The notes under the pieces: model-generated
Databases searched by the model: none
Told to the model about the DNA's origin: nothing
What the model saw: only the letters and a program-made list of their open reading frames with translations
Made by a program: the position numbers and the translations under genes
In this document: one piece after another, positions 197 through 11,873 of the stretch
Layout of the letters: the number at the start of each line of letters is the position of its first letter
Position numbering within the stretch: the stretch's first letter is position 1
Assembly (NCBI RefSeq): GCF_030373985.1
Contig: NZ_JAUCRB010000005.1
Coordinates: 1 to 64,000 of the forward strand
Origin: Wolbachia pipientis
Lineage (GTDB): Bacteria > Pseudomonadota > Alphaproteobacteria > Rickettsiales > Anaplasmataceae
Direction of reading: 5' to 3'
DNA: 64,000 nt

Positions 197-397
197 ATGT
201 TAAAAAGTTTGAGTGTTTTTTTTTGTGGTATAAAACAAGAAATAAGGAGAATTGCCTGGGTGAAGAAGCAAGAGGTGCTATCATCTTTATTCGTTGTGGC
301 AATCTTTATATTATGCTTCTCAGTTTTCTTTTGTCTTGTAGATTTCACATCTCTTTGCACGATTAAGGCTTTATTTGGGATTATTTATGGAACATGA
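197..397 (+). CDS. secE: Preprotein translocase subunit SecE
   Basis: A 66-residue protein with the SecE layout: a short cytoplasmic amphipathic segment with the conserved IAWVKKQEV stretch (about residues 19-27, equivalent to the family R-V-x-W-P-x-x-x-E motif), then one hydrophobic membrane helix (about residues 30-50). SecE clamps SecY in the inner-membrane translocon. The alphaproteobacterial single-TM length fits. Its stop codon overlaps the start of nusG by 11 bases, which implies translational coupling. Position between tRNA-Trp and nusG is the canonical one and supports the call despite weak sequence conservation. Confidence 0.9.
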   Translation: MLKSLSVFFCGIKQEIRRIAWVKKQEVLSSLFVVAIFILCFSVFFCLVDFTSLCTIKALFGIIYGT

Positions 398-1223
398 ATA
401 TAAATGGTACACTATTAAGGTTAATTACGGGCATGAGAGACATGTGCGTAAGTTGGTAAGTAGTGCTATCTATTTCAAAGAGGTATTTATTCCTTATCAA
501 ACGGTATGTAATTCAAAACCTGATATAAAAGAGTTATATGAAGTGTACGTGTGCATGCATTTATGCGATGAGAGCAAAGATATTTTGAATCAAACGCCAG
601 GGTTCTGCAATGGTGAACCTGGGAATTTTGACGTAGTTTCAGATAATGAAGTGAGTTTAAAGCGTAGAGAGTTCAATAAATACAAATGGTATATTTTGAG
701 AGTCGCTTCCAATTATGAAGAGAAAGTTTGCCAACATATATTAGAAAATTCCATAAGATTAGGGATTAATGATTACTTTAAGGAAGTTTTTATCCCATAC
801 GAAGAGCCAAGTGAGGCAGAATTAAGATCTAAAAAAACTGCTAAGCGAAGGAAATGCTTTCCTGGTTATGTTTTTTTATATGTAAATTTGTGTGATGAAG
901 TGTTAAACTTTGTCAATAGTATACCAAAGTCCCTTAAAGTCTATGGATTCTTAAAAAATGGCAATATTCCCAAAGTAATTTCAGACAATGAAATTCTCTC
1001 AATGCGTGATGCACTTTATAATGCTCAAGAGGCAAAAAAGTTAAGTCACGGTTATGAAAAAGGGGAAAAGGTGAAAATTAATGATGGTCTCTTTCAAAAT
1101 TTTACTGGTAGGGTAGATACGATTAATGATGAGAAAAAAATTATTAATGTAGAAGTGTTGATTTTAGGTAAGCCAACAATAATAGAGTTAGATTTGGCTC
1201 AAGTAGAGAAAATAAAGGATTAA
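387..1223 (+). CDS. nusG: Transcription antitermination factor NusG with duplicated N-terminal domain
   Basis: NusG binds the RNA polymerase clamp and couples it to Rho or the ribosome. I choose ATG 387 over an in-frame TTG at 375. The 278 residues far exceed the usual 175-190. Residues about 99-210 form a recognisable NGN domain (YKWYILRV, YFKEVFIPYEE, KCFPGYVFLYV) and residues 222-275 a KOW domain (YEKGEKVKINDG). Residues 5-90 look like a second, diverged NGN copy: YKWYTIKV, YFKEVFIPY, HLCDES and VSDNEV recur in the same order, but the FPGYVF segment has eroded. The extra domain appears to be an internal duplication. rplK begins 2 bases after the stop. Confidence 0.93.
   Translation: MEHEYKWYTIKVNYGHERHVRKLVSSAIYFKEVFIPYQTVCNSKPDIKELYEVYVCMHLCDESKDILNQTPGFCNGEPGNFDVVSDNEVSLKRREFNKYKWYILRVASNYEEKVCQHILENSIRLGINDYFKEVFIPYEEPSEAELRSKKTAKRRKCFPGYVFLYVNLCDEVLNFVNSIPKSLKVYGFLKNGNIPKVISDNEILSMRDALYNAQEAKKLSHGYEKGEKVKINDGLFQNFTGRVDTINDEKKIINVEVLILGKPTIIELDLAQVEKIKD

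Positions 1224-3338: not shown

Positions 3339-11873
<8,535 letters not shown>

Follow-up and report, generated by a model that had tools for sequence, protein, structure and literature searches.

An extra, selected NGN domain at the front of the housekeeping NusG of Wolbachia

This locus raises the question of why the housekeeping nusG gene of a Wolbachia genome should encode a protein carrying a second NGN domain in front of the usual one, and what this additional domain may do. The window, i.e., the whole analysed stretch of 64,000 nucleotides from a Wolbachia pipientis contig (NZ_JAUCRB010000005.1), belongs to a genome of 1.05 Mb in 14 contigs. In the first-pass annotation, words repeated within this NusG had been read as a duplicated and partly decayed NGN domain, and it had been asked whether the extra copy contacts the clamp of the fused RpoB-RpoC encoded nearby in a different way. 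The features considered (NGN1 and NGN2 being the first and second copy) are the following:

197..397, + strand: secE (Pfam SecE, E=9.2e-10), with its stop codon within the nusG start, 11-nt overlap
387..1223, + strand: nusG, 278 aa, NGN1-NGN2-KOW (TIGR00922 nusG, 181.5 bits, cut-off 135.7, residues 101-276)
387..668, + strand: NGN1, the extra, remodelled NGN, residues 1-94 (Pfam on residues 1-98; AlphaFold prediction of the domain alone; VIA-align and Foldseek matches)
471..497, + strand: YFKEVFIPY in NGN1 (strand beta2)
543..572, + strand: VYVCMHLCDE in NGN1 (strand beta3; predicted strand 50-57), retained without the preceding FPG turn (alignments)
669..680, + strand: final part of the NGN1 C-terminal helix, plus linker (helix predicted at 86-96; NGN2 strand beta1 from residue 100)
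681..1028, + strand: NGN2, the canonical NGN, residues 99-214 (Pfam, TIGR00922 and structure matches)
774..800, + strand: YFKEVFIPY in NGN2
858..899, + strand: FPGYVFLYVNLCDE in NGN2 (translation, alignment)
921..953, + strand: IPKSLKVYGFL in NGN2 (contains a three-residue insert when compared with Ehrlichia, Anaplasma and Neoehrlichia)
1041..1220, + strand: KOW domain (Pfam KOW, E=0.0037, 17.5 bits, under the cut-off of 22.3; fold match)
3348..11873, + strand: fused rpoB-rpoC, 2841 aa (context)

The open reading frame at 387-1223 encodes the Wolbachia housekeeping NusG, in which the NGN domain has been duplicated internally. Its TIGR00922 score lies above the equivalog cut-off, it is the single NusG match in the whole genome, and it is flanked by secE and rplK and followed downstream by rplA, rplJ, rplL and the fused rpoB-rpoC (ribosomal gene names were read from translations), i.e., the locus shows the secE-nusG-rplK-rplA order that is standard for housekeeping NusG. 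The protein is 85-86% identical to the NusG of Wolbachia strain wOc and of a Rickettsiales MAG. In the window, secE encodes only 66 aa, and the 11-nt overlap of its stop codon with the nusG ATG is common to 39 of 39 Wolbachia loci, for which reason the annotated nusG start can be considered sound. Gene structure suggests that NusG is expressed in this long form. An internal start yielding NGN2-KOW only is not supported: no start codon within residues 60-104 was common to all 39 strains, the most widely shared being those at residues 67 (25/39), 83 (23/39) and 104 (17/39).

Residues 1-98 constitute a genuine NGN domain. Taken alone, they scored 26.4 bits with Pfam NusG (PF02357; gathering cut-off 22.2), residues 99-278 giving 61.8 bits, and the two parts matched each other in BLASTP with E=7e-11 and 32% identity. 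In the profile comparison (14 NGN1 rows against 10 NGN2 rows), P was 1.8e-16, so the repeated words noted at first sight are real and far beyond chance. The codons of the shared YFKEVFIPY differ between the copies in the third base at eight of nine positions, which indicates that the word was kept at the protein level and does not reflect a recent DNA duplication.

A search with the full-length fold was filled with NGN2-KOW matches and was uninformative on NGN1, which was therefore predicted and searched alone. In the full-length AlphaFold model (25 sequences; mean pLDDT 85.3, pTM 0.71), residues 6-96 form a beta-alpha-beta-beta-alpha-beta-alpha arrangement, followed by the second NGN (100-215) and the KOW strands, and the prediction of NGN1 alone from 14 Wolbachia sequences (pLDDT 78.5, pTM 0.70) gave the same elements. 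The predicted linker between the two NGN domains is about three residues long. The best Z of the isolated NGN1 model was obtained with 1m1h, Aquifex NusG (VIA-align Z 9.2, rmsd 5.0, 94 residues), while 1m1g gave Z 9.0 (rmsd 2.8, 88 residues) and 2k06, the E. coli NusG NGN, a Foldseek E of 4.8e-4 (TM 0.67, probability 1.00). The top 35 rows of its structural ranking all represent NusG, RfaH, Spt5 or Pol II elongation complexes, although the title of one entry, 9fyx, names an influenza polymerase complex; lower in the lists, unrelated entries (IlvN, GlnK) also appear. The models thus predict that residues 1-98 adopt an NGN fold. Failure of residues 1-95 to adopt such a fold, or unrelated sequence there in orthologues, had been named at the outset as grounds for giving up the duplication; the fold was predicted, and Wolbachia orthologues carry related sequence at the N-terminus. 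The duplication itself is borne out at the level of sequence and profile as well as by the predicted fold and the tree (see below).

At the C-terminus, residues 220-276 match the fold of the E. coli NusG C-terminal domain with a Z of 9.2. In E. coli NusG, the loop I164-F165-G166 of the KOW domain contacts Rho (PMC7593976). The equivalent loop (window 1161-1169, residues 259-261) is I-L-G in 36 of the 39 Wolbachia; the remaining three (L018, L038 and L039) have I-F-G, as do the Ehrlichia, Anaplasma and Neoehrlichia rows shown.

Comparison of the two copies revealed what NGN1 has kept and what it has lost. Residues W7, F30, V33, F34, P36 and L59 are conserved in both, 15 residues are at least 90% conserved and identical between NGN1 and NGN2, and the fold core is retained. 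In contrast, K149, K150, K156, P159, G160, Y161 and L164, conserved in NGN2 and the outgroup, are not kept in NGN1, whose gaps relative to NGN2 and the outgroup comprise several alpha1 and loop residues, the K-K...K loop, the FPG turn and a stretch around V185. On its polymerase-facing side, NGN1 is therefore without the FPGY turn and the basic loop that are expected of an NGN. The first-pass annotation had described the whole FPGYVF segment as lost; the FPG turn is indeed missing, but beta3 (EVYVCMHLCDE) is present. NGN1 has a median net charge of -6 (from -9 to +3 among strains) and NGN2 one of +3, and NGN1 was the more negative in 38 of 39 strains, although its acidity is not uniform (net 0 in L016 and +3 in L021). 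IPKSLKVYGFL and its three-residue insert are invariant in 39 of 39 Wolbachia and occur in none of the Ehrlichia, Anaplasma and Neoehrlichia rows, which suggests that NGN2 may have been remodelled as well.

For the distribution of NGN1, 87 relatives were searched with the NusG of the window, of which 80 matched. Within the genus (41 genomes, its own and 40 others), a full-length NusG with an in-frame NGN1 was found in 39; in G009 the match was limited to residues 209-278, as in the named record L075, which ends at the contig end, and G020 (71% complete) gave no NusG match. In all 11 same-family genomes and in the 29 matching genomes of the order, the NusG alignment begins at residue 76 or later, and none of these 11 has a second NGN. 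When 216 genomes of the order were searched with Pfam NusG, 11 of the 15 same-genus genomes gave two NGN matches, no such pair was seen in the 201 non-Wolbachia ones, and the four same-genus genomes with a single Pfam match are all full-length in the search of relatives. Among 28 named loci, there were 13 complete Wolbachia-type ones, all with an intact NGN1, 11 from Ehrlichia, Anaplasma and Neoehrlichia with NusG of normal length, three distant ones matching from residue 95 or later, and one truncated. Across the phylum (398 genomes, 358 matched), the window's own was, among the matches listed, the only one before residue 58. NGN1 is retained in small genomes, e.g., that of the Howardula symbiont (a 553,558-base record). 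A duplicated NGN in Wolbachia was not found described in our literature search.

An open frame proves little for NGN1, because NGN2 needs the same frame, and it is the dN/dS ratio that provides the evidence. Calculated as a ratio of sums over 39 Wolbachia genes, it was 0.198 for NGN1, 0.116 for NGN2 and 0.131 for KOW, based on 511, 549 and 605 of 741 pairs, respectively (pairs with dS of 0.3-1.5 were kept and the rest dropped). Synonymous divergence is not lowered in NGN1, hence the constraint acts on the protein. NGN1 is thus under purifying selection, evolving faster than NGN2, and the earlier description of it as partly decayed does not hold: the ratio is about 0.20, and all 39 Wolbachia genes carry the domain intact. 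The double-NGN NusG is real, genus-wide and selected.

The origin of NGN1 was addressed with a domain tree of 61 rows (two copies from each of 22 of the 39 Wolbachia and 17 outgroup rows). In this tree, which is limited by few columns and long branches, NGN1 and NGN2 each form one clade (support 100/100 and 98/97), and the NGN1 stem is long (1.45 changes per column). As the clades are separate, there is no ongoing gene conversion: NGN1 has a single origin, in the Wolbachia stem, with no conversion afterwards, and one old duplication followed by slower change agrees with the tree. Together with the unlike codons, the separate clades led us to reject both gene conversion and a recent date for the duplication. 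When NGN1 and NGN2 were constrained to group together, the resulting tree was not rejected (AU p=0.39), so that NGN1 may be either sister to NGN2 or a slightly earlier branch. Transfer from another source is not favoured, considering this test and the hhalign scores of NGN1 (93.3 to Anaplasmataceae NusG, 90.6 to NGN2). At well-kept residues that split NGN2 from the outgroup, NGN1 resembles NGN2 at four, the outgroup at five and neither at three, which places the duplication far back in the stem.

A different addition at the same place was found in g6, a genus of the same family represented by the two genomes G045 and G051, the housekeeping NusG of which, about 336 aa long, carries N-terminal ankyrin repeats (ANK-NGN-KOW):

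L047:4490-5500, - strand: ankyrin-NusG of g6
L048:2457-3452, + strand: ankyrin-NusG of g6

Pfam E-values were 2.6e-7 and 8e-8 for Ank_2 and 2e-13 and 5.7e-13 for NusG, and the operon position of the gene, read for G045, is the same as in Wolbachia. In the RNA polymerase tree (15 rows), g6 groups with Wolbachia as its sister (support 94/95, slightly under the starred level) and is probably its sister genus; it could be Mesenet, a Wolbachia-related genus. Its ankyrin domain sits where NGN1 sits in Wolbachia. Ankyrin repeats are a typical protein-binding module, and by analogy this parallel may support an interaction role for NGN1.

It had also been asked whether NGN1 could be connected with the fused polymerase subunits. 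A 192-aa query across the RpoB-RpoC junction was uninterrupted in 30 of 31 same-genus genomes, G020 giving no match. Open frames of at least 2,762 aa, with no stop inside the match, show a fused rpoB-rpoC in at least six of the 11 same-family genomes (G041, G043, G045, G046, G049 and G051), the genes are separate in G042, G047, G048 and G050, and G044 is not clear-cut. Fusion is scattered in the family: Wolbachia, Neoehrlichia and some further genera have an uninterrupted frame, and Ehrlichia and Anaplasma have separate genes. Since the fusion occurs in relatives all of which are without NGN1 (0/11 same-family genomes), the two are unlinked in distribution, and contact of the extra NGN with the fused clamp found no support here, the FPG turn and basic loop of the RNA polymerase-facing side also being missing.

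As described in PMC7593976, the NGN of NusG binds the beta' clamp helices (via a hydrophobic patch) and the beta gate loop, and F56 of RfaH (Leu in NusG) is required for RNA polymerase binding; clamp-helix arginines are reported as needed for NusG binding in PMC12364105. In our alignments, the F56 position corresponds to F163 in NGN2, which keeps the whole segment around it, and to an invariant Y54 in NGN1, which lacks the adjoining turn and basic loop. Given Y54, some clamp affinity of NGN1 is possible. We infer, nevertheless, that NGN2 occupies the clamp site, that the short-linked NGN1 acts beside it and does not serve as a second clamp binder, and that NGN2-KOW is the working NusG, NGN1 being a selected accessory domain, docking or self-regulating. 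The reading that we prefer, to which we would assign a probability of roughly 0.45, is that NGN2-KOW would do ordinary NusG work on RNA polymerase. NGN1, having arisen once in the Wolbachia stem, would then have lost its basic loop and FPG turn and turned mostly acidic, selection maintaining it as an accessory domain for protein interaction that a very short linker connects with the NGN2 N-terminus. Most probably, it would dock on NGN2 or on an adjacent surface of the elongation complex and thereby tune NusG binding or recruitment. A more far-reaching version is rather doubtful, namely that the only NusG of Wolbachia became a self-regulated or docking form, with NGN1 as an acidic pseudo-NGN acting in cis on NGN2, and that this lineage adds domains at the NusG N-terminus (an NGN in Wolbachia, ankyrin repeats in the sister genus), linking core transcription to some other process of intracellular life.

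Several other explanations have to be weighed against this accessory docking role. The acidic NGN1 might form an autoinhibitory lid, covering the basic, hydrophobic polymerase-binding face of NGN2 until it is released by a further factor, as the KOW domain does in RfaH. This seems unlikely, as the acidity of NGN1 is not universal and we know of no need for inhibition of a housekeeping NusG; still, the net charges of the two domains are opposite in most strains, the predicted linker is very short, NGN2 was remodelled in the same genus (its invariant insert), and shielding of an NGN has a precedent in RfaH (PMC7593976). Alternatively, NGN1 could hold the elongation complex elsewhere, through a second polymerase or nucleic-acid contact, making NusG more processive and perhaps suiting the fused RpoBC. 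The predicted NGN fold and the invariant Y54 are consistent with such a contact, yet a domain that is mostly acidic and devoid of the basic loop and FPG turn is a poor candidate, and at least six of 11 same-family genomes have the fusion and 11 of 11 lack NGN1, so that we regard it as improbable.

Somewhat less probable still is a structural or chaperoning element, by which NGN1 would aid NusG folding or stability with no polymerase role: conservation is indeed strong at likely fold-core residues, but the conserved K31 and E88 are charged and unlikely to lie in a core, and same-family NusGs manage without NGN1. The least credible explanation is a slowly decaying relic, tolerated since the frame must stay open for NGN2. 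The dN/dS of NGN1 above that of NGN2, its several indels and its lost segments would agree with decay; neutral drift, however, would give a ratio of about 1 and not of about 0.2, 15 strongly conserved residues are the same in both copies, and the domain persists even where the genome is small, as in the Howardula symbiont.

NusG is universal and among the most conserved regulators of gene expression, so that an extra, selected NGN is an unusual change, and the genus-wide NGN-NGN-KOW arrangement represents a natural case of an NGN apparently freed from clamp binding in the cell's only NusG. Nus factors have been proposed as a requirement for transcription read-through between cifA and cifB (PMC7397232), and an altered NusG would therefore bear on how the ratio of the Wolbachia cytoplasmic-incompatibility genes is set.

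Lineage-specific additions to housekeeping NusG are known, as the Aquifex and Thermotoga proteins have an inserted extra domain and the mycobacterial one an N-terminal extension; to our knowledge, none of these is a second NGN. Compared with the housekeeping bacterial NusG (TIGR00922, NGN-KOW), the Wolbachia protein contains a full NusG in residues 99-278 and occupies the same secE-nusG-rplK place, but differs in the extra front NGN and the length of 278 aa, same-family frames being of 171-193 aa except in g6. With RfaH and other specialised NusG paralogues, RfaH being regulated by domain closure (PMC7593976), it shares duplication and remodelling of NusG; unlike in those, the duplicate lies inside one polypeptide and not in a separate gene beside the housekeeping NusG, and the RfaH equivalog score of the window NusG, 29.8 bits, is far below the cut-off of 144.5. 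Finally, eukaryotic Spt5 likewise has extra acidic material N-terminal to its NGN, but that region is not described as an NGN in the available text of PMC7819879, and in Spt5 it is the KOW domain, not the NGN, that is multiplied.
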